A stretch of 64,000 nucleotides of DNA from Bolinopsis microptera (lineage: Eukaryota > Ctenophora > Tentaculata > Lobata > Bolinopsidae). The notes beneath the pieces are model-generated. The model made no database searches. It saw only the letters and a program-made list of their open reading frames with translations, and had not been told where the DNA came from. Within the stretch, counting starts at the first letter, position 1. Each line of letters opens with the position of its first letter. A program made the position numbers and the translations under genes. Location of the stretch: contig NC_087073.1 of the NCBI RefSeq assembly GCF_026151205.1, forward strand, positions 6,345,001 to 6,409,000, read 5' to 3'. Below are positions 11,776-52,493 of the stretch, in pieces.

Positions 11776-12330
11776 CTACAAAACTAGTTTATAGTTTAAC
11801 ACATCTCTTCCTTTTTCAAGTGTCCAGATCCTTGTTTCCTCTACAGATCCTATGTTGGATTTGAACTGGTTGACGAGTTGCTTGATGTAGCTGCTGTCGG
11901 AGGAGTAGCCCGAACTACTTCTCGTTGTGCTCGTGCTGTCTTGAGATGGTTTCCTCAGTTCCTTCGTTTCGGCTTGCAACTTCTTCTTCAGGTCAAGGTC
12001 CATGCCACTCTTTCTTCTGCTTGCGATGTAGTAAGCCTGCTTGCAGAGACCCATCTTATCCAGGACAAAGAGGAAGTCCTTCTTGAATCCAGCTCGAGAG
12101 AGTGAGTATAGGAATGGGTTAGCGCAGGCGTTCAGAGGCAGGAAGAAAACGACAAGGATCTTAGCGTTAGAGGTCGTTATCAGTGGCTTCTCTAGGGCGG
12201 CGCTGACTCCACAAACCACGATAGGCAACCAACACAACACGTCTGTTAGGATAATCAGTGCCATCCTCAGAGTTTCACGGAAATCTGCGTTATCCAGCGG
12301 CTTTTGGAGGTGCCTCACGTTGCAGAATAT
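11776..12330 (-). CDS. LGR exon 23: TM6, TM7 and cytoplasmic tail
   Basis: Codes 184 residues and the TAG stop. [19 protein letters not shown] is TM6 and [20 protein letters not shown] is TM7, with NPFLY as the NPxxY motif. The tail of about 100 residues starts [17 protein letters not shown], with a likely palmitoylated Cys. It contains a Ser/Thr cluster ([19 protein letters not shown]) suited to GRK phosphorylation and arrestin binding, which is inference. Confidence 0.9.
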   Translation of the reverse strand: MFCNVRHLQKPLDNADFRETLRMALIILTDVLCWLPIVVCGVSAALEKPLITTSNAKILVVFFLPLNACANPFLYSLSRAGFKKDFLFVLDKMGLCKQAYYIASRRKSGMDLDLKKKLQAETKELRKPSQDSTSTTRSSSGYSSDSSYIKQLVNQFKSNIGSVEETRIWTLEKGRDVLNYKLVL

Positions 12331-15300
12331 CTGGAAATGATAGGCCATGATAAATATGTATACACGTTTGTGTCAACAATTTACATCACTAATCTTCGAT
12401 AAGATTAAAACTTTAAAAGTGAGATTATGTTGAGATTATGTTGATTAGCGCACAATTTGTGCTTCATCATATTCTGTGCTTATGTATATTGTATCTGTAC
12501 TTCCGCTATTCACGACATTGCAGTGAAATGGTCTGCACAGAGGCCGTTATGGAAACGTCTGACAAAGAACGGTCGACATACGATTAAAAGTCTCCCTTAC
12601 TTTTCAACACGTTGAAACAAGAACAAAATATAAAGCTGAGACAATTAGAAGTTCACGTCTGTTCGGTACGTGTTTAAAAGTAACTTCGCAAGTGTGACCT
12701 CGAGTCGTAGACAGCAAGGAGACACAGTTCCGTCACGCACAATGAACTCCTTCAAACGGGCGGAACAAAAGTGTTTTGTCGCGGAACAGTACGGAGTGTT
12801 GATTGTTGACATGCTTGCAAATTGGGGAGCTAATTTTGCTGACATTTTGGCCGAAGAAAGGGTTAACAAGGATACAAAGGTGAAAATAAGAAAACGTACC
12901 GTGAGATAGCAGTAGATGATAATAGTGACAGCGATTGTGTTTATCACCATCAGGGACAGTATCAGAGCCAGACTCTTTCCATCACCAGTCTGAAAAAGGT
13001 CGTGATTAGTTTGAGCTGTACAAAGAGATTCGCAACCTTGTATGGCTAGTTAGAATTTAAATAAACGCGGGCAGCAACAATTTCGATGCTGTATTACTAT
13101 TAGCCAAAGTACAACTACCTTATCGGTCATAATTATCACGGACATTACTTTAACGCTGAAGACCTTAGCGTGAATAATTAAGTCCGTGAAAATAATGTCT
13201 GTGGCATTAAGGTCCGTGAATAATAAAGTCCGGTAGTTATTTCCATTAATTTTAGTGTGTGTGAGTCCCTATATATGCGTATTGCGTACATATGTGTGTA
13301 GCCGATTACCATATTAGTTTATTAGTATGCTAGGACTAATATCAAATATAATCACTCCTCAGTCACATTCTAGGGTACAGAAAAAGGGTAAACCACGTAT
13401 TAAAAATCACCACAAATTTTCACAATTTTTGGACATTTTTGGGCGGTCATGAGTGTGAATAATTATGTCCGTGAAAAATTTGGGCCGTGAAAAACTTGTC
13501 CGTGACAATTATGTCCGATAAGGTAGTCGGCACCACGACTACATTTCTAAGCTATTGCCAAGTTTTTGTACACAGAAAACGAACAATGAAGGTCAAGCTG
13601 GAGGTATTCATGACCGAAATATAGACCCAGGAACGCGTTCTTTACATGTCTTTTAAAACTTTAAAATACCAACGGGCCAGTTTATAATTTATTCAATAGT
13701 TTATTCAGGAGCTGGCCAGTATTTTAGGCTATCCTTACATATCTTTACATGACAAATATAGTTTTTCCATCGGCAAAATCGGACAGTGTAAAGTTGTACT
13801 ATCCTGCAACTTTGTCATTAGCCACAGTTGCAGTTTTTGGTGCTCATCTAAGGGAGGGTGACCTTTCGGCCTCAACCAATACTGGTATGTGCGTACCTAA
13901 TACTGAAAACTAGTGGTCAAAATGGCGCCCTCGCTTTGTAACATCGGTCTGGATGGAAAGCACGAGGCCATTTTGATGATGCACTGAGTTTTAAAGTACT
14001 TAAATTTGAGAATATCAAAGACATTTTATGCATTTGTAATTTGTAGATATCAAAGACATTTTATGCATTTGTCGACCAAAGTTTATTTTCAATACCTGTG
14101 AAGGAAGGCAGAATGCCACGAGGCTGTAGTCAGAAAATCCGAGAAGTGGAAGAGCGCCGGCTGTAGCAGAGATAATCCATCCAATCAGCTGAAAGAGAGC
14201 TTGGTTAGAGAACACGTGGGATGATCAGTTAAAAAAAGAGAGGCTAGGCCTAACCTAGGTAACCTAGCAACAGTAACCTGGTGGCCCACGAGAGGATAGC
14301 ATGGGGATGCTCTGTCTGCCTCTGGGACATGGCAATCCTGGTGGAGATTGCCGGAGAAATCAAAGTGAATAGTGAAGGATGGTGTTATGAGGGGAGATGA
14401 GTCATAAAGGAACGCTTTAGTGCCAGCTGGGTGTGGAAAAGAAAAATGGGCTAAGACAACGTGTGAGTAGTCTCTCTGTCACGCCGGTCTGGTCCAGCTC
14501 CTCTGGCACAATTAAGCGTTTGGTGCGGTTTGCGAAATTGACAATAGTGGAGATGTTTTGGTTGTCGAATCAGATCAGTTTGTAATGGTCCTAGTTGAGG
14601 TGTGGTCCTACACACAAGTGTAAAATGGCGCACTCTTGTGTGGTCTGTTGAGGATTGATGTGGTATAAGACAGTGTGCTTTGTGGTGTGTTCTCTTAGTG
14701 GTGTTAGTGGTGTTAGTGGTGTTAGTGGTGTTAGTGGTGTTAGTGGTGTTAGTGATGTTAGTAGTGTTAGTGATGTTAGTAGTGTTAGTGGTGTTAGTAG
14801 TGTTAGTGGTGTTATTAGTGTATTCTGTTAGTGGTGTTAGTTTGATGTCTGGAGAGTGGTTTATCAAGGTGGCGGGGAGGATGTTGTTAAACTGTAGCTA
14901 TGTCAACAGTTAGTCGTCACAGAAAGAGAGAAAAAGGGGTTCTGGCTCTACTCTGCTCCAAACAGACAGCTGAAGTGTGAGTGGTTACAATGTGTTGACT
15001 GTTGCTATGGTAACCACGTGACATGTTAAGAATGCAGAGTGTCAACACCCCCAGTTTAAATGTTTCGAGTGGTGAAATTTCTACGACTTGACTCCAGACA
15101 ATGGTGCAGTCTGTTTAAATCTGCCAGTTTCACGGCTTCGTTCACCCAGCTTGCAGTTACCCCACCATGGCAGCAAGTTAGAGAACATGGCAAATGTTAC
15201 AGCGGGAAACTAATCGTTGCGCGGAAAAATCAGGTCCAGCCTAAAGTTTGGAACCGAACGTTTAAAGCCTGATATTCTTAAACACCGTGTACTGTGTAGT

Positions 15301-18300
15301 CAACAGTCAAAAAGTGTTTGTTTATTGAAGGTAAATAGGGAAAATATAACGAGTCTGAAGACATAGAAGCTTTGTGCAGCGAACAAAGAACTGACAATAG
15401 TTAGATTCTCTGTTCGTGATAATATTTCGAAAGTCTCGCCACCCCAGACAATTAGTCATGAAGTTATGGACCACCTTACTAACTTTTTCACGGTTGCCGG
15501 TTCCGTGGTATTTGGCAAAGGTTTTTTTGAGTGGATGCCAATTTTACAGAAGTTCTGCAGCAAAATCACGTTTGCAATTTCAACACCGATGAGGATCGTT
15601 TTTAGAATGGGGTGGCATTGAAAAAAAGCGGGACATGATTTTTAAAATCACTAAGTTCCACAAATTCTCGGTAGAAAGCAGCCCGAAAACTTCCCACTAG
15701 TATTTTTACTGAGCTCACGAGGAAAACTTGCTAAATTCCTTTGCCTGAACCCTAAATTCTATTTATCATACCATGATAAATGAATAATCGAATAAATCTA
15801 TGATATATTTTCGTAAAATTAGCATGCGTTATTTGTCCCCCGCATACCCACGGCACCAGGCATCCTACCGGTGAGCACTCCTCAAAATAACCATGTTACT
15901 AGGGTTACTATTCCGTTACTAACCATAGCAAATGCAATGTGGCGGGTTTTAAGGTGTTTGTAGGGGTTGGAATAGTGGATAATCGTGACCATCCTCTCCA
16001 CGCTGATCACTGTTAGTGTGAAGACTGACAACTCGCTGCTAAACGTCACCATGAACCCTGCAATCTGGAGATTGGGACACTGGTTAGTGGGGATATGGAA
16101 ATTGGGACACTGGTTAGTGGGGATATTGAGATAGGGACACTGGTTAGTGGGGATATAATCCTGCAATCTGGAGATTGGGACACTGGTTAGTGGGGATATA
16201 ATCCTGCAATCTGGAGGTGGGACACTGGTTAGTGGGGATATAATCCTGCAATCTGGAGGTGGGACACTGGTTAGTGGGGATATAATCCTGCAATCTGGAG
16301 ATTGGGACACTGGTTAGTGGGGATATAATCCTGCAATCTGGAGATTGGGACACTGGTTAGTGGGGATATAATCCTGCAATCTGGAGATTGGGACACTGGT
16401 TAGTGGGGATATTAAGATTGGGACACTGGTTAGTGGGGATATTGAGATTGGGACACTGGTTAGTGGGGATATTGAGATTGGGACACTGGTTAGTGGGGAT
16501 CTAATCCTGCAATCTGGAGATTGGGACACTGGTTAGTGGGGATATAATCCTGCAATCTGGAGATTGGGACACTGGTTAGTGGGGATATAATCCTGCAATC
16601 TGGAGATTGGGACACTGGTTAGTGGGGATATTAAGATTGGGACACTGGTTAGTGGGGATATTGAGATTGGGACACTGGTTAGTGGGGATATTGAGATAGG
16701 GACACTGGTTAGTGGGGATATTGAGATAGGGACACTGGTTAGTGGGGATATAATCCTGCAATCTGGAGATTGGGACACTGGTTAGTGGGGATATAATCCT
16801 GCAATCTGGAGATTGGGACACTGGTTAGTGGGGATATAATCCTGCAATCTGGAGATTGGGACACTGGTTAGTGGGGATATTAAGATTGGGACACTGGTTA
16901 GTGGGGATATTGAGATTGGGACACTGGTTAGTGGGGATATTGAGATTGGGACACTGGTTAGTGGGGATCTAATCCTGCAATCCGGAGATTGGGACACTGG
17001 TTAGTGGCGATGTGGAGATTGGGACACTGGTTAGTGGGGATATAATCCTGCAATCTGGAGATTGGGACACTGGTTAGTGGGGATATGGAGATTGGGACAC
17101 TGGTTAGTGGGTATATAATCCTGCATTCTTGAGATTGGGACACTGGTTAGTGGGGATATGGAGATTGGGACACTGGTTAGTGGGGATATAATCCTGCAAT
17201 CTGGAGATTGGGACACTGGTTAGTGGGGATATGGAGATTGGGACACTGGTTAGTGGGGATATGGAGATTGGGACACTGGTTAGTGGGTATCTAATCCTGC
17301 AATCCGGAGATTGGGACACTGGTTAGTGGGGATATGGAGATTGGGACACTGGTTAGTGGGTATATAATCCTGCATTCTTGAGATTGGGACACTGGTTAGT
17401 GGGGATATGGAGATTGGGACACTGGTTAGTGGGGATATAATCCTGCAATCTGGAGATTGGGACACTGGTTAGTGGGGATATGGAGATTGGGACACTGGTT
17501 AGTGGGGATATGGAGATTGGGACACTGGTTAGTGGGTATCTAATCCTGCAATCCGGAGATTGGGACACTGGTTAGTGGGGATATGGAGATTGGGACACTG
17601 GTTAGTGGGGATCTAATCCTGCAATCTGGAGATTGGGACACTGGTTAGTGGGGATATTGAGATTGGGACACTGGTTAGTGGGGATATTGAGATTGGGACA
17701 CTGGTTAGTGGGGATATAATACTGGTTACTAAAAATTTGACTATGGACATTGTGGCTTGTGCATTGCAAAGTACTGCAGTACTGCAGTAACCATGGTTAC
17801 AGGGCAGGATTAATAAACTGATCACCCTGTGTTTCAAAACATTTACATAAGTTTTCTTTTCTTGTCGAGCAACTTGCCAAATACGTCACTTATTCAGAAG
17901 GGAGTTGCTTTAACCTCAAAAAGCCGACACACCTTAGCTACAAATTCTACAGAACCAGAGAATCAGGGGCCCTTTAGTATGGCCTAATTGCAAAGTTCTG
18001 ATTACTGGCTCCACCTTGTGTCTAGTGGCACTGCGTAATACCTCTGTCTCGCCACTCCAAACAGAGGGAGGGGTGATTCCCAGAGGACAAACATTACCTG
18101 GCCACTATTCAGGGTTTTCAGTGTTCATATATCATCAGTTTTAGCATTAAGGACAGGTGCTGAGTTACCACATTAACTACCACTACCGGACAACTTCATA
18201 ACTCAACTACAACCAACAAAACGTTAAAGTTTACCTTGCAGCCGGCTCCATTCTGCCAGTCCATAGCAAAGTCTTCGTAGAGACCATAGGTTTTAGCGTC

Positions 18301-21300
18301 CACAATAGCGAGCATCATAAGGTAAATACCAGTGAAGAGGTCCGAGAAGGAAAGGTTCATTATTAGGAACCGGGTTGGGGTAAACCTGAGGAAGGGAGGT
18401 TATAGCTTGTAAACTAAATCATGCTTAGACACGTGACAGAAACCGAGGTTATAGCATGCAGCATATGATCAAAACAATCTCCTTGTCATATATTACTCGT
18501 TAATTTACTTTGATTTAAACATCAAAAGGGTGGTTAAAAGATTAATTGTTCTAGAATAAGAAATTCAGGAACTAAGATAAACAAGAAGGTTAGGTTACCG
18601 ATGGTGAGACCCAAATCTGCTTGCGTAAAATGCTCCCAGCTATTTTAACGCTGATTTAATAAATTGATAATCGCGAAAATTCTATCGATCGTGATTCTGT
18701 CGCAAACCAGTATCACATTTCCCATTTTGTTCGCCAAAAAAATACATAGGTACTTGAAAATCCGATTTAAAATTATATTTACTTTTTAGTGGATAAGATG
18801 GTGATAGTAAAAAGAGTCAAGTTGCCCAGCACAGCCAAAGTGCAGACGATCCAAACACCCATCCTTAGTACCCAGTTCCCAATTAGGTCTTCACAGGGAT
18901 TAAACTCGTCGGGTTGCGGAGTGCAATGTAGCTGAAACACAGACTTTGTAATTTTCCGGTACCTGCCAATTCCTACTGCCTCTTTGCTGAGCAGGGGCCC
19001 AAAAAGGATTCATAATTAAGCTTCAAGGCTCTGGTGCGCAAAAGGAAGCCAAAATAAGCTGCAAATATTGTACAAAAAATAGAATACAAAGCAAGAGAAA
19101 GAAACCTCGTCAGTAATTGGAGCTAGTTTTAGTATAGTGCCGTTATCACCTTCTTTATCCAGCTCCTCGAAGTTGATAACTGTTACATCCCCGAACTTCA
19201 AATACGCTGCAGGGTAAAACTCTATTACGTGGGTTATTACAGACTATAAAACACGTGACCTCTCCTACCGGTCTTCCCAGTCATCACTTTGAAGTAAACT
19301 CCCCGCCTACAAAGTCACGTTTAGTGAGGAATACAGAACACAATATTACTTGGTGTGGGGGTCCAGGTCAAATCAGCAGCGTCCCTCTTGGGCCGGGGTG
19401 GCTGGGTGGTGGTGGCGGAGGGTAAAGGAGACGTTGTCATGGTCATTGCAGTGTGAGTCGACCAGCTGGCACTGCTCTTTAGTTCTAGTAATCTGTCGCT
19501 GTAGAACTGGAAATCAGTTGTTCCGGTTATGTAGGTGGGGGTTATGTAGGAGCTCGTACCATCCTCTCCTCCCTTCTCTGTGATTAAAACTAACTAAGAT
19601 TAACTTATGTAGAATGTAGATACATAATCCTATTAAGGTTGCGTCTCATTTCTCATCGAAGAGCACAAATAAGTGGAAATACAGATTACTTGTGATGAAG
19701 GGAAATTTTGACCAAAAACAAATAAACTGAGAATTTGTTTACGCAAATCAGCGACAAATTCAATATCTTTGTAATAAATGAATGAAAATGCTTACTGGGT
19801 TGTTTGATGGCTGTAATAAAGGTTGCTTTATAATCGATTGGAGCTTCATCCTTCCAGTGTCCAGACACAAATTTCCCGGTAGTTGTTTTATCTTCTTTCT
19901 TTTGGGAATTCCTTCTTGACGAAGATAATGATGTCATTATCAGAATAAGCGTCACTTGGAAATGATACAAAGCTCTCTCTCGAAAAATCGGGGGATCGTT
20001 TACTTGTTACTGTTACGTAACCACAGAATATGGTTTCAACCGATGACAAGTTTTAAAAACCAGATTCGACGTCACTAGATGCCACAGGAACGAAACCCTG
20101 GCCCACCCTCTTAATTAAATGGACAGGTGACTTTGATCACGGAATTTTAAAGTATAAGTTAAAACAGCTCACTTGATTTTCTTGAACCAGCAGCACATGA
20201 CAGGAAAGGGAACGGTGGCTCTTCTCAGAGCATCAAGACCCTGACGCGGCAGTTTGGAAACCAATTTAACGTTACCTGCAGAAATTAAAGAGATTATAGA
20301 ACGGCCGGTGAGATTTAGTCTATGAAATATTTTCCTCACAATGTGCTTGGTAGAAATTTTTGCGCTTAATCGTAATTCCTTTCTATACACTGACTCAGGT
20401 GATAGTTAAGCTAAGTAAGTGCTTAGAAGGAGATATTATTAACAAATATTTTTGTAAATTTACACGTGTTGATTAAATATCCAATCAGTGAATTACAATT
20501 TTTATTGCCGTTAAAAATTATCGTGTCATCAATTCCTGTGCCCGAAAAGTGAAGCCTTTTTGACAGGCATAGTCCAGAAATTATTGTCATCTAATCAGAA
20601 ATAATGAGAAAGTAGAAGTTAAGAGTGGAAATCAGGACAGCCGGACTGCAAATAGTCAGCTTAGCGTGACCAAAATCACATTTTCGTGTCTCTTTACGGA
20701 ATTCATACTGCCATGTATACTGACAAGTCTATCCCAAAATAAGAAGAATTACCTACCCTCCAGTTTAAGAGTATCCACGGCAGAGAGCCCAACATGAGAC
20801 AGCTCCTCGAGATCAACGTTAAAACTGAGGTCCAGGAACCTCAGGGTCCCAGCCAGTCCGGCGAGGGTTTTGTTGTTGAAGATGGTGAGCTTGTTGTTGG
20901 AGAGGATGAGAGTTGTCAGTGCTGTCTGATCGAAGAAGTTATCAGGGACGTGGCTTATGCCGTTACTCCCTAAGTCTAGCATGGTGAGAAACGAGTTCTC
21001 AGATAATTCCAGCTCTTCTAAGGATGATATCTTGTTTCCCTCAAGATGGAGTCGGTCAATTTCGGGCATCAGTTTCAGAAGTCCTTTCTCAATCCATTCA
21101 ATTTTGTTATGACTCAAGTCTCTGGAAAAGAGGAAATTGTGAGTTTCTGTGAGAAAAGTGAATTCGTAATTAATTCATAATTAATTCATAATTAATTACC
21201 AAACAATTGTCCATTTAAACAGGCCCTGGTAAAATGTGAAACTTAAACCATATGACGTAGTACAAAGAGTAAACAGTAGCACGACACTTACAGATCTTTC

Positions 21301-39306: not shown

Positions 39307-39625
39307 ACGTACCACGTACCACGTACCACGTACCACGTACCACGTACCACGTACCACGTACCACGTACCACGTACCACGTACCACGTACCACGTACCACG
39401 TACCACGTACCACGTACCACGTACCACGTACCACGTACCACGTACCACGTACCACGTACCACGTACCACGTACCACGTACCACGTACCACGTACCACGTA
39501 CCACGTACCACGTACCACGTACCACGTACCACGTACCACGTGCCACGTACCACGTGCCACGTACCACGTGCCACGTACCACGTGCCACGTACCACGTGCC
39601 ACGTACCACGTGCCACGTGCCACGT
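39307..39625. repeat. 7-bp microsatellite (GTACCAC)n
   Basis: About 45 copies of GTACCAC, nearly perfect for the first 230 bp. The last 85 bp alternate with GTGCCAC, producing CACGTG palindromes. A 7-bp unit with no stop leaves all frames open, which explains the long ORFs on both strands. Each unit contains the self-complementary ACGT. Confidence 0.97.
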
Positions 39626-43420: not shown

Positions 43421-43849
43421 GTAATGACTACCAATGGAGACTTCTTGGGGACTAATGGGACTAAAAATCGTGGGGACTAGAGGTCAACTCGTTGACGTAA
43501 TTCACCATTTGTCCCATAAGTCCCAGAATTTTTGACAGTTATTTATGGTTTTCAAGTTAGTTTAATAACGATACGATCGAGATGTTTTGTCCAAGATAAG
43601 AGTAGGATAAATCTGACTTAAAAGTAAAAGATAAGCCCGGTTGTAATGTGTTCTACCACTGTACAAGTCAGTTCAGATTGAGGTAAATTGAAGTTTAGCT
43701 CTCGTGAAGGTAGAAGTAGCCGACTCGCTGAACTCTTGAATCTTTTGACCCATCAGCATGGACATTATCGGGAAAATGATGATCGATTAGAATCTTACAG
43801 TTACCTCCTCCTTAGAATCTTACAGTTACTCCTCCCAGAGGGAGGAAGA

Positions 43850-46495
43850 CTGAGGAGAAAGAGGAGGACTGAGGAGGACTGAGGAGGACTGAGGAGGAGG
43901 AGAAGGACCGAGGAGGACTGAGGAGGAGGAGGAATGAAGAGGAGAGGGAGGACTGAGGAAGAGGAGCAGGATTGGTGGGAAGGAGGAGGAAAACGAGAAG
44001 GAGGAGAAGGAGGAGGACTGAGACGGGAGGAGGAGGAGAAGGACTAAGGAGGAGGAGGACTGAGGAGGAGGATGAGGACTGATGAGGAGGAGGAGGACTG
44101 AGGAGGAGGAGGATAAGGAGGAGAATGAGGAGGAGGAGGAGGAAGACTCAGGAGGAGGACTCAGGAGGTGGAGGAGGATGAGGAGGACTCAGGAGGAGGA
44201 CTGAAGAGGAGGAGGAATGATGAGGAGGAGGAGGACTCAGGAGGAGGAGGAGGACTGAGGACGGGGAGGAGGAGGAGGACGAGAGCGAAGATGAGGAGGA
44301 GGAGGACTGAGGAGTAGGACTGATAAGAAGGAGAAGGAGGAGGAGGTGGAATGAGGAAGACTGAGGATGAGGAAAAGGAGAAGGAGGACTGGGGAAGAGG
44401 AGGACTTGGGGAGGACTGAGGAGGAGGACTGGGGTAGGACTGAGGAGGATGATGAGAAGGAGGACCGAGGATGAGGAGAAGGAGAAGGAGGACTGGGGGA
44501 GGACTGATGAGGAGGATGACTGGGGGAGGACTGGGGGAGGACTGAGGAGGAGGAGGACTTCGGAGTAGAAGGAGGAAAAGGAGGAGAAGGAGTAGAAGGA
44601 GGAGAAGGAGGAGAAGGAGGAGGAGGAGGAGGAGGAGGAGGACTGAAGATGAGGAGGAGGAATGATGAGGAGGAGGAGGACTCAGGAGGAGGAGGAGGAC
44701 TGAGGACGGGGAGGAGGAGGAGGAGGACTAAGGACGAGGAGGACTGAGGAGGAGGACGAGAGCGAAGATGAGGAGGAGGAGGACTGAGGAGGAGGACTGA
44801 GGAAGAGGACTGATAAGAAGGAGAAGGAGGAGGAGGTGGAATGAGGAAGAAGACTGAGGATGAGGAAAATGAGAAGGAGGACTGGGGAAGAGGAGGACTT
44901 GGGGAGGGACTGAGGAGGAGGACTGGGGTAGGACTGAGGAGGATGATGAGGAGGAGGATGATGAGGAGGAGGACCGAGGATGAGGAGAAGGAGGACTGGG
45001 GGAGGACTGATGAGGAGGAGGACTGGGGGAGGACTGATGCAGATGAGGAGGAGAACTGGGGGAGGACTGAGGAGGAGGAGGACTTCGGAGTAGAAGGAGG
45101 AAAAGGAGGAGAAGGAGGAGAAGGAGGAGAAGGAGGAGAAGGAGGAGAAGGAGGAGGAGGAGGAGGAGGAGGACTGACGAGGAGGAGAAGGACTGAGGAG
45201 GAGGAGGAGGATGAGGAGGAGGAGGACTGACGAGTAGGAGGAGGACTGGGGACTGAGGAGGAGGACTGAGGAGGAAGAGGATGAGGACTGAGGAAGAGGA
45301 CTAGGGAGGATGAGGAGGAGGAGGACTGAGGATGAGGACTAAGGAGGAGGAGGAGGAGGCTGAGGAGGAGGGGGACTGAGGAGGAGGAGGACTGATGAGG
45401 AGGAGAAGGAGGATCAGGAGGAGGACTGAGGAGGAAGAATGAAGAGGATGAGGACGAGGATTAAGGACGAGGATTAGGAGGATGATAACGAGGACTAAGG
45501 AAGAGGACTGATCAGGAGGAGAAAGAAGAGGAGAAGGAGGAGAAGGAAGAGGAGGATAAGGAGGAGATTGAGGAGGAAGAAGAGGAGTATGACTCAGGAG
45601 GAGGACTAAGGAGGTGGAGGAGGATGAGGAGGAGAACTCAGGAGGATGACTGAAGAGGAGGAGGAGGACTGACGAGGAGGAGGAGGAGGACTCAGGTGAA
45701 GGAAGAGGAAGAGGACTAAGGACGAGGACGAGCATGACTAGTGGAGGACTGAGGATGAGGACTGATGAGGAGGAGAAGGAGGAGGACTTAGGAGTAGGAG
45801 AAGGAGGATGAGGAGGAGGAGACTGAGGAGGAGGAGACTGAGGAGGAGGAGGAGACTGAGGAGGAGGAGGAGGACTGTTGAGGAGGAGGAGGATGATGAG
45901 GATCAGGACTGAGGAGGACTGAGAAGGAAGACTGAGGAGGACGAGGAAGAGGACTAAGGACGAGGAGGAGGACGACTGAAGAGGAGGAATGATTAGGAGG
46001 ACAAGAAAGAGGAGAAGGAGGAAGAGGATGAGGAGGAGGAGGAGAACAAGGAGAATGAGGAGGAGGACTGGGGGAGGACTAAGGACGAGGATGAGGACGA
46101 GGACGATTATGAGGAGGACAGAGGATGAGGACTGATGAGGAGGAGGAGAAGGAGGAGGAGGACTGGGGAGGATGACTCAGGAGGAGGATGAGGAGGACTC
46201 AGGAGGAGGACGACTATGAGGAGGACTGAGGAGAACTGATGGGGAGGAGAAGGAGGAGGAGGATGAGAAATGAGGATGAGGAGGAGGAGGAGGAGGAGAA
46301 GGACTGGGAGTAGGACTGAGGAGGAGGGGACTGAGGAGGAGGGTGAGGAGGACTGAGGAGAAGGACGAGGAGGAGGACGAAGAGCCAGGAAGAGGACTGA
46401 AGAGGACTCAGGAGGAGAAGGACTCAGGAGGAGGAAAACTTAGGAGGAGATGGAAGAGAACTGATGAGAAGGAGGAGGAAGACTAGGGAGGAGGA
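43850..46495. repeat. 2.6 kb homopurine (GGA/GAC-rich) satellite
   Basis: The + strand is almost only A and G with scattered ACT and TGA: degenerate units such as GAGGAGGACTGAGGAGGA with higher-order near-repeats (for example 44,215-44,400 and 44,650-44,880). Such tracts can form triplexes. ORFs of Glu/Arg or Ser/Pro/Leu repeats inside are by-products. Confidence 0.95.
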
Positions 46496-46659
46496 GGACA
46501 TCTAAATGTTTTGTCTGTTTTTGTCCGTTTTTGTCCGCCCTACCTTTTGTCCGTTTTGAAAATAAAGGGTACCGAACGGACACAAAACATGATCCCCCAG
46601 CCAAGCATGTGTTACAATACAAATGTAATTGACTATACATTTAAGGTGCAGTGTACTAG

Positions 46660-49618: not shown

Positions 49619-52446
49619 TTTTTTTGAAGGTACCGCTCCCAACGGTCAAAGTGTAAAATTATTATATACAATACAATTTGAAAATATAAAGATAATATCA
49701 ACACATATTACTAGTCCATCCTGGTATGAGGTTGATGTCGCTGTTCGTGTCGTCGCACCATTGGACTGCTCTTCCTCTGTGTCCTCGGATGGCGGCGAGG
49801 GTTGTGCGGAGGATTGAGAAGCGGAGTTTTCGGCGTATGTGAGAAATCGTATCACTATAGGGTGTTCCCCTTTTGTTTGATATGAGTGTTGCGATTCTCT
49901 TATGGAAAGCTTCAGCCTCTTTCCCCATGCTTCCGCTAGTGGAGAAAACGAGGGGTGTAAATGTGCTTTTCTCCACTTCCAGGACCCGGCTGTTATATGT
50001 TCGTTTCTTTTCAGCCTCGTGTTTCTGAAACACTTTGTCAATGGGCCCACTGTTGCTTTTATTCCCGTCATGAAAGACTCGAACGTCGAAAAACGTCTTG
50101 TCCACGGTGTTCCAGACCCCCCTTGCCGTGATGTCCAGCCTTGCATCTGGTCGGGTGTTAGTCGTTTTGAGTTTGAAGGTTTCTCCTGTAAGAGGTAGCA
50201 ATTTTGGTTCTGTCCGAACGTCTTTGCATACCTCTTCCAGGAGACTGGCTTCTAGGTCGCGGATCTGGTTGTGCCGCATATCCCTGTAACCTCCCATAGC
50301 ACAGGATAGTGCATGGTCTATGGTGTTCGCTTTAGAGCATGCACATATCTGCGGTCTGTCTCTGATTGGGTGTTTATATCTCATCAGGACGGCGTCGGAA
50401 AATTCCTGCTTTGATAACGTATAGTGGAATTCCTCCAGCGGTAAAGCGGTAAGCCATGACGATGCTCCTTTCTGGCAGAGAATGTCCAGGTTTCTGCTGG
50501 TGTCGTCAGTACATTTTGCTTTAATAGAGGCCAACTTGTACTTATTGTAGAGGGTTTTCTCACTAGAAATGCCATTTTTCGCATGTTTGATCTTTTGGTT
50601 CATTTCATGGGTTTCCTCAGGGGAGAGTGTGAGTTTCTGGTTTAAGATAGCCTCAGTGAGAGGTTGTGTGGCTTTCCTGGAGAGGCTATATTCTAATGGG
50701 CACATTTCCACGGGATTGGATACAGCTAGGCCTCCGAATCTTGTGGGTAGGCTGTAAATGTCCCTATCTGTGTCCGTGAAAGCATGGTTTCCAACTATTA
50801 TTGGTAGAAAACTTGAGCGAATACATGCCTCCAGTGGGGCGAACAGGTCGGCTATATTTGGTATTGTCCTCATCACGTATGTCCACCTCTTGCTGAGTCC
50901 AGTGATATACGCTGAGTACGCCAGCTGGGGTTCGGTTAGTGCGATCTTGCATAACTCCTCAAGCTCTGTGACCCATTTTGCCACCTTACCTTGTACATAT
51001 TGCTTGATAAATGACTGTGTCCCTATGGCAGCGCCGAGGTATCTCTGCCCTCCTGATTTATCCCCAGTTCCCTCCTGAGTAATCTGGATTCCTGTCCCAT
51101 CAAATAGCTCTCGTGCCTTGTCTAGGTGTTCTTGTTTGACAACTAACCATGTCTTTGTGGCATTTGGGAAGTATCCTATGGGAGGTCCAATTATCAGAAG
51201 TTTGTCCCACCAGGCTTTGAGTGACTCCAAGTAGCCGCCAGCTCCTCCGTCGTCGGCGTACCAGATATTCTTACAGCCGACGATGAGTGACAACTCTTGT
51301 AGAAGCATGAGAGTGGAAATGGAATAAAAACCGGATGCACAGTTGTCACCTTGTGTTGTTCCTTCTTTAGATAATAAGTGATTGCCATCGGGGAGGAATA
51401 GTTTCGATGGGTTTCTGTAGGTGTTAATTAGGTACGTGGCGAATTCGGGGCAGGTGTGTCTGATGTTGTGCAGTGCTGTCTGGCGATTGAGGCTGTTAAA
51501 CGCGTTCGTTGCGTCCACCAGTAGGACTCCCTGGCAGTCGTCTTCAGCAAATATGTCGGACATTGCATGACAGGCGGCTTCGTATCCTCCCTCTTGACCC
51601 GCAGAAAGCTGTAGTGGCCCGACGGAGTTGATGATTTCGGGCTTCAGGAACATGACCACCGTTTTTCCCATTATTCGTCGCAAGACCTCACCAATACCTA
51701 TAGGACGAATGCCTGGGTTCTTATCGAGAGGTATAAGTCTACAGTTTAGCAAGGGTGCGATTGGCTGCGGGTCAACGTTCTCGGTGCAGAGCCTCCTACA
51801 TGCCCTGGCTATTGAATCACAAGCGTCTGAGGAGGATTTTCCGAACGACTTTGAGCACAATATCCTCCTCCAGGTGTCGCTGTCAAGGCCACTGGGCCCG
51901 CACGCTCCTTTCGTGATTTTTGCGGCTTTGTAGACCAGTTCGGCGTCGATGTTTTCGAAGATGACAGGTTCGACGATGGGCACCTTATCCTTTTTGAGTA
52001 CTCCAGTTGCTAGTGGGGCTGCGTCAGGATGTTTGGTTTTCAGTTTTTTGACAACTTCGGGACTGATTTCCAGGGGTTGTGAGTTGTTGTTTGTTATCCA
52101 TCTCAGAGCTGCCGCAACCTTGCCCTGTAGCATCAGTCGTGTGAAAACTTTGGCAACATGGGTTTGGTTCTTCTGCTGTGTGTTTTGGGGTATTCTCTTC
52201 TGTATAGCCTCACATTCCGACAAGAGCTTTTTGAACTTTCCTGCTTTCCATTTCTCCAAACGTTCTCCGAGGTATTTGATATGATCTCGATTTTTTGAGG
52301 TTTTCGAAGGTTTTTGGAGCATTGTTGCAGTAAATACGTTAAGAGCTAGAAATGATATTGATTCCATCGATGTTTTGTTGATCCAAAGGTCAAGCAGTCG
52401 AGTTATTTCTCCGATAAATGCTTTGCCGAGGGTACCTGATGGGATC
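49619..52446 (-). mobile_element. 5'-truncated non-LTR retrotransposon with 14-bp target-site duplication
   Basis: TTCTAATAATAGAT flanks the element perfectly at 49605-49618 and 52447-52460. On the minus strand the element ends in an A run next to the left copy, as expected for target-primed reverse transcription. The ORF is open to the very 5' boundary (no stop between 52446 and the first ATG at 52367), indicating 5' truncation. The perfect duplication and intact 889-codon frame suggest a recent insertion. Confidence 0.92.
49698..52367 (-). CDS. Non-LTR retrotransposon polyprotein: RT plus restriction-like endonuclease
   Basis: 889 residues from the first ATG. RT motifs in order: GPSGLDSDTWRRIL (157-170), RLIPLDKNPGIRPIGIGEVL (210-229), VLLVDATNAFNSL (281-293, catalytic Asp285), EGTTQGDNCASG (335-346), WYADDGGAGG (369-378, YADD), QRYLGAAIG (441-449). 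After the thumb comes a CxCx7Hx3C knuckle (C675, C677, H685, C689), then TRPDARLDITARG (738-750) and FFDVRVFHDG (759-768), the layout of the PD-(D/E)XK-like nuclease of R2/NeSL-type elements. The N-terminal zinc fingers of intact relatives are absent through truncation. Clade within the restriction-like-endonuclease group not settled. Confidence 0.85.
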   Translation of the reverse strand: MESISFLALNVFTATMLQKPSKTSKNRDHIKYLGERLEKWKAGKFKKLLSECEAIQKRIPQNTQQKNQTHVAKVFTRLMLQGKVAAALRWITNNNSQPLEISPEVVKKLKTKHPDAAPLATGVLKKDKVPIVEPVIFENIDAELVYKAAKITKGACGPSGLDSDTWRRILCSKSFGKSSSDACDSIARACRRLCTENVDPQPIAPLLNCRLIPLDKNPGIRPIGIGEVLRRIMGKTVVMFLKPEIINSVGPLQLSAGQEGGYEAACHAMSDIFAEDDCQGVLLVDATNAFNSLNRQTALHNIRHTCPEFATYLINTYRNPSKLFLPDGNHLLSKEGTTQGDNCASGFYSISTLMLLQELSLIVGCKNIWYADDGGAGGYLESLKAWWDKLLIIGPPIGYFPNATKTWLVVKQEHLDKARELFDGTGIQITQEGTGDKSGGQRYLGAAIGTQSFIKQYVQGKVAKWVTELEELCKIALTEPQLAYSAYITGLSKRWTYVMRTIPNIADLFAPLEACIRSSFLPIIVGNHAFTDTDRDIYSLPTRFGGLAVSNPVEMCPLEYSLSRKATQPLTEAILNQKLTLSPEETHEMNQKIKHAKNGISSEKTLYNKYKLASIKAKCTDDTSRNLDILCQKGASSWLTALPLEEFHYTLSKQEFSDAVLMRYKHPIRDRPQICACSKANTIDHALSCAMGGYRDMRHNQIRDLEASLLEEVCKDVRTEPKLLPLTGETFKLKTTNTRPDARLDITARGVWNTVDKTFFDVRVFHDGNKSNSGPIDKVFQKHEAEKKRTYNSRVLEVEKSTFTPLVFSTSGSMGKEAEAFHKRIATLISNKRGTPYSDTISHIRRKLRFSILRTTLAAIRGHRGRAVQWCDDTNSDINLIPGWTSNMC

Positions 52447-52493
52447 TTCTAATAATAGATACTCCGTATAATATAGTCCTAGGGAGTTCCTAT

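Follow-up and report, generated by a model that had tools for sequence, protein, structure and literature searches.

A glycoprotein-hormone-type receptor gene of the ctenophore Bolinopsis microptera carries, in the intron between its TM2 and TM3 exons, a minisatellite whose units repeat the gene's own intron-exon junction. The gene lies on the minus strand of the 64,000-nt stretch of DNA that was analyzed (contig NC_087073.1, positions 6,345,001 to 6,409,000; hereafter the window), and the array, 1.65 kb in length, ends at the acceptor of the TM3 exon (Table 1). We consider this array to be, with fair probability, a splice-junction minisatellite that belongs to a recurrent mutational class and is tolerated with leaky splicing. 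This explanation assumes no dedicated regulatory function.

The 43-bp unit consists of 35 intron bases followed by the first 8 exon bases, and reads ATTATATCCCC...CTCCAG and then ATTGCAGG. The complete unit (ATTATATCCCCACTAACCAGTGTCCCAATCTCCAG joined to ATTGCAGG) occurs seven times in the window. An initial annotation of this DNA had already described an array that abuts the real TM3 acceptor, together with the 43-bp unit, its orientation, and its coordinates, and all of these were confirmed when the sequence was read again. Cutting the array into units at CACTAACCAGTG gives 46 pieces, of which 24 are 30 bp long, 19 are 43 bp long, two are 42 bp long, and the last runs into the exon. Among the 21 long units that precede the last piece, the junction (marked here by a slash) is CTCCAG/ATTGCAGG in 16, CTCAAG/AATGCAGG in two, and CTCCGG/ATTGCAGG, with the AG lost, in three. 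The 30-bp units, 24 of the 45, all lack the copied AG, and both units that adjoin the real junction are of this shorter kind.

The units thus repeat the splice-site consensus in 16 exact copies and two changed copies with AG among 45. The earlier estimate of about 20 decoy acceptors holds in that junction copies are present, but the true count is these 16 plus the two of the CTCAAG/AATG form, and the rest are without that AG. Each of the 16 exact decoys has 25 intron bases and 8 exon bases in common with the real site. The window contains 46 matches to CTAACCAGTGT with at most one mismatch, compared with a mean of 1.14 in shuffled sequences. CTCCAGATTGCAGG has 17 occurrences in the window, 16 of them in the array and the other at the real acceptor, and a single further one in the rest of the searched genome (264.65 Mb in 232 contigs), a singleton on contig C11. 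Potential RNA hairpins of the form CACU-AACC-AGUG were not significant (z = -1.4; 14 of 200 shuffled sequences fold equally well).

Table 1. Features of the receptor gene and its array, in window coordinates.
Feature	Position	Strand
TM2 exon, ending ...GGCTGCAAG/GTAAAC, phase 0 donor	18235..18385 (start by eye)	-
Intron between TM2 and TM3 exons	16065..18234	-
5' portion of the intron, found once in the genome (sole match is itself)	17730..18230	-
Minisatellite (90 AGs): 45 units measuring 30, 42 or 43 bp, followed by the intronic stretch of the real junction	16065..17720	-
Four alternative first exon bases that keep the frame: 16079 (+5 residues), 16109 (+15), 16139 (+25), 16160 (+32)	16079..16160	-
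TM3 exon, 141 bp, beginning at the real acceptor	15924..16064	-
First 8 exon bases (ATTGCAGG), copied exactly in 16 array units	16057..16064	-
Exon after the TM3 exon, coding 31 residues	14096..14188	-
Following exon, coding 30 residues	12900..12989	-
Final coding exon, containing TM6, TM7 and the tail	11776..12330	-

The borders of the array point to its origin. At its left end the unit coincides with the array border at 17720 (ATTATATCCCC), and at its right end with the real exon start, which means that one unit corresponds to the presumed ancestral junction of 35 intron and 8 exon bases. Unit anatomy and both borders therefore fit the proposal, made in the initial annotation, that the array was born by amplification of the intron-exon junction, and we regard this origin as well supported by the sequence. 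Judging from the unit strings, the 30-bp unit appears to be the 43-bp unit without 13 bp (AGATTGCAGGATT). Higher-order copies are also present within the array. Two pairs are exact (249 of 249 and 219 of 219 bases) and a further pair matches at 240 of 249 bases. Exact copies of this length would imply recent exchange, and those of 249 bp, within one assembly, suggest that copy number has changed recently.

A plausible course of events would begin with the tandem duplication of a single 43-bp stretch that spanned the end of the intron, with its CTAAC branch-point-like motif, and 8 exon bases. A derivative shorter by 13 bp and devoid of the acceptor AG would then have arisen, and rounds of unequal exchange could have spread both kinds of unit. 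The order of these events is our reconstruction.

The identity of the host gene is supported by its joined exons, which belong to the Pfam family 7tm_1. Of their solved relatives, FSHR scores highest (253 bits), ahead of LHCGR (248 bits) and TSHR (240 bits), with LGR4 (about 150 bits) and relaxin receptor 1 (88 bits) further behind. The 7TM region is closer to the first three than to LGR4 or relaxin receptors, as is characteristic of type A LGRs, and LRR-like open frames can be seen by eye upstream in the gene. In vertebrate glycoprotein-hormone receptors one large exon generally encodes the 7TM region, whereas in this gene several introns interrupt it, including the intron that holds the array. 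The TM2 and TM3 exons join in phase 0, and the spliced sequence GAGCK/IAGF aligns without gaps to GAGCDAAGF of the FSH receptor. Genome-wide, the TM3-exon peptide matches one place only, and the exons that follow are open through to the stop codon. Because the exons on both sides of the array are open and align well with FSHR, the receptor gene seems to have been kept in working order despite the array. In keeping with a ctenophore genome, the ligand-binding region of one glutamate receptor is most similar to ML032222a of Mnemiopsis and next to 4zdm of Pleurobrachia; another glutamate receptor had kainate receptors as its best matches among the 60 of 246 hits listed.

Several other repeats are present in the same DNA. 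The receptor gene contains a second array (window 14695-14841) of 9-bp ACTAACACC units on the gene strand, most of which include CTAAC. Elsewhere, the window holds a 2.6-kb purine-rich array of the GGAGGA type (43841-46498) and 45 copies of ACGTACC (39307-39625). Long retroelement ORFs are found at 500-2638 on the plus strand and at 49698-52448 on the minus strand; one has a GIY-YIG domain (Penelope-like by eye) and one has a reverse transcriptase domain.

To compare acceptors, a matrix of 30 positions was built from 58 sites, 17 of which were taken by eye from XPO1 and the receptor gene and 41 of which were found at 46 myosin exon matches by means of the matrix itself. The version used to score the receptor gene comprises 57 acceptors, with the receptor site left out, and branch points and enhancers fall outside its scope. 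On this scale the real acceptor at 16064 is weak: it reaches 3.0 bits where the median is 10.8, and just one of the 57 others scores lower. A score of at least 3.0 bits is reached by 76 of the 90 AGs of the array in several registers, including 42 of 46 at AACCAG/TGT, all 16 at CTCCAG/ATTG, 16 of 19 at ATTGCAG/G, and both at ATGCAG/G. In the rest of the intron a single AG, at 17781, scores as high.

When translated from the AG toward the end of the exon, 86 of the 90 array sites meet a stop and four remain in frame. The initial annotation had predicted that use of a decoy would truncate the receptor. This is true of all 18 copied-junction units with AG, where entry in phase 0 leads to a stop within eight codons (IAGLYPH*, IAGLDPH*, or NAGLYTH*, with the asterisk denoting the stop), but the four in-frame sites would instead add residues. 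These four are among the array AGs closest to the exon, and they score 5.0 (16079), 7.9 (16109), 4.3 (16139), and 6.4 bits (16160). Since many array AGs equal or outscore the real site and four are in frame, the major acceptor cannot be fixed from sequence alone. We prefer 16064 because the alignment with FSHR requires no insert.

Amplified junctions are also found at other genes. A sample that was not picked for arrays, consisting of 46 of the 69 myosin-head exon matches (C3:9159442 is among those left out), contains one whole-junction array. This array (C2:3176547-3177426, minus strand; loci L093 and L094) is composed of 22 perfect 40-bp copies, each with 31 exon bases and GTAGGAGAG, and has CCTTC at both borders. 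Its units end with the exon's donor, CAG/GTAGGAGAG, which makes it a junction minisatellite of the donor type. A preference of arrays for acceptors over donors is not apparent in these 46 matches, where arrays occur close to either end of exons. At locus L072, an 8-bp array stops 13 nt short of the acceptor and copies no exon bases.

Genome-wide, three tandem copies of TTTCAGG occur at 1426 places (309 in the reversed control) and three tandem copies of CAGGTAAG at 984 places (26 in the reversed control), where the counts are overlapping matches rather than independent arrays and the control ignores any genomic excess of splice motifs. All 100 of the tandem CAGGTAAG matches listed fall in one large array on the plus strand (C1:6658097-6665824), whose units contain this motif. 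The TTTCAGG matches listed represent about 15 arrays by eye, nine of which were read, four picked by eye and five taken in list order. The first bases of an exon are copied in the units of four of the nine (L098, L099, L100, and L105). The first of these (C1:19562150-19562950, plus strand) has 45-bp acceptor-junction units at a UBE2W-like exon (85 bits). Because this unit reads through in frame (VMFIGDPPINPVLFQ), splicing to a decoy at that exon would lengthen the protein by repeat residues rather than truncate it. The exon at L099 encodes a deaminase zinc-binding region (31 bits), and a Pfam search with the exon at L100 gave no family. At L105 (C1:25355290-25355550, plus strand), one open frame is preceded by copies of its acceptor junction and followed by copies of its donor in 48-bp units (CCAG/GTATGT). 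At L104 the array stops some 20 bases short of an open frame that looks zinc-finger-like by eye, and the remaining four of the nine (L097, L101, L102, and L103) have no exon visible on the array strand. Copied junctions are thus present in one of the five arrays taken in list order, and another of the five comes close to an exon.

The motif CTAAY is more frequent on the sense strand in 13 intronic arrays and on the opposite strand in 2, a nominal bias (p = 0.007 against one half), although the ratio is already 159 to 104 outside arrays and six of the 13 are in genes chosen for the finding or for the motif. At the level of sequence, the conversion of junctions with some exon bases into tandem arrays is a recurrent class in this genome, occurring at several exons. 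The same architecture in other genes makes the finding less special to the receptor.

A search of the whole genome with a 19-base core of the array, allowing two mismatches at most, returned 137 places compared with three in the reversed control, and thereby revealed arrays in two further genes. In XPO1 on C7 (152 bits to exportin-1), the array consists of 17-bp units CCCCCTCTAACCAGTGT and finishes at the real acceptor CCCCCTCTACCAG/GTACAC, and in a DUF7886 gene on C6, 22-bp units end at CACCCCAG/TGATG. The XPO1 array is broken by an element of about 150 bp with inverted ends (GGGACAAAAGGATTTCGCG...), which looks MITE-like by eye (approximately 4673-4520 on the minus-strand ruler of locus L039). 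Among the 100 of 137 places listed, C1:17188772, C5:9840369, and C5:14909585 are lone matches. No such array was found on reading the surroundings of C11:7719160, a match from a separate search.

The sharing of a related core (approximately CYTAACCAGTGTYCC) with two other genes, and its presence in a neighboring XPO1 intron (two of six places matched, with none in the reversed control), might be taken to indicate a mobile or introner-like repeat that carries its own acceptor. We rejected a dispersed element as very improbable because the receptor locus alone was matched by a 139-base unit query, searched with common words passed over, and by the intron's single-copy 5' part, and because the resemblance to the core in XPO1 and the DUF7886 gene is real but short. 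Indeed, the likeness to the XPO1 locus extends over no more than 21 bp (95%, E 0.017). The array unit also holds the receptor gene's own exon bases, and CTAACCAGTG is not enriched genome-wide (649 places, arrays included, versus 828 in the reversed control). Related intron copies elsewhere in the genome, which would identify an introner or mobile element, were sought with the same two queries, and only the receptor locus matched. That the array is an assembly artefact is more improbable still. Exact internal copies could in principle be collapsed or expanded, but the units bear distinct variants in a structured order and similar arrays are found at several places in the assembly.

Other explanations concern the consequences of the array. 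Tuning of receptor dose by copy number, as the initial annotation suggested, is possible in principle. Array acceptors would compete, and the number of units would set the ratio of full-length to truncated or degraded products. Such a device could draw on 16 exact decoys, a weak real acceptor, and the recent copy-number change to which the exact higher-order copies point. We nevertheless think it unlikely, given that the recurrence of this architecture in unrelated genes suggests a mutational habit rather than a receptor device, and that the copied AG is missing from more than half of the units, among them both that are next to the real junction. It is likewise doubtful, if slightly easier to envision, that the array generates in-frame isoforms, in which the four sites would insert CPNLQ-type segments after the end of TM2/ECL1 and ahead of TM3, and the major site might even be among the four. 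All four are open, in frame, and outscore the real site, the length of the 30-bp unit is divisible by three, and the 45-bp unit of the UBE2W-like exon is similarly open and in frame. Yet the FSHR alignment has no need for an insert. Rhodopsin-type receptors have a conserved cysteine at the top of TM3, and an insert two residues past it would probably disturb the fold.

The array could also be a silent passenger, with splicing directed to 16064 at high fidelity. Its intronic position, the intact reading frame of the receptor, and the existence of similar arrays even in a gene as basic as XPO1 are in keeping with this idea, which we still judge improbable because many array AGs score as well as the real acceptor or better. 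In the explanation that we favor, a recurrent junction minisatellite tolerated with leaky splicing, the spliceosome would meet dozens of similar acceptors, and exon definition, together with nearness to the downstream donor, would favor those that are proximal to the exon. Mostly full-length receptor would then be expected, perhaps with small in-frame inserts. Use of other array acceptors would give messages with early stops, most of which would be degraded.

NAGNAG tandem acceptors, in which two competing sites are separated by a few bases, resemble this array in having acceptors that compete at close range, whereas the receptor array repeats an entire junction many times across 1.65 kb. The closest precedent is the minisatellite of human IFI6 (also 6-16 or G1P3), where two of the downstream repeats are reported to function as donor sites and three mRNA species result (PMC4526556, on Turri et al. 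1995). In both cases a tandem array sits at the edge of an exon and its units repeat a splice site. As described in that source, the IFI6 repeats are donors whose use in RNA is reported, whereas the receptor array repeats acceptors with 8 exon bases and is known from its sequence. The myosin array on C2, being of the donor type, is nearer to the IFI6 example as described there. In Caenorhabditis elegans, the dispersed minisatellite CeRep25B is over-represented in introns beside alternate exons (PMC4039745), and also links an intronic minisatellite with splicing choice. It differs in that it is a dispersed repeat for which the excerpt of that source makes no mention of splice-junction copying, whereas the receptor array copies its own junction. 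No report of an acceptor-type splice-junction minisatellite was found in the open-licence PMC literature.

Competing splice-site choice has mostly been studied with engineered constructs. The arrays described here offer natural tests, with 16 exact acceptor copies in the receptor gene, 22 perfect donor copies in the myosin gene, and an exon flanked by copies on both sides at L105. The RNA-seq and Iso-Seq data for B. microptera mentioned in PMC10232365 could directly reveal which factor governs the choice among the copies: position, exon definition, or site strength. There is perhaps a modest chance that the copies in junction minisatellites, whether of an acceptor, a donor, or both around one exon, are really used, and that such arrays act as copy-number splicing dials and as sources of in-frame inserts in many genes, including the receptor gene. 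If the copies are used, repeat length would constitute a heritable and fast-changing form of isoform control.
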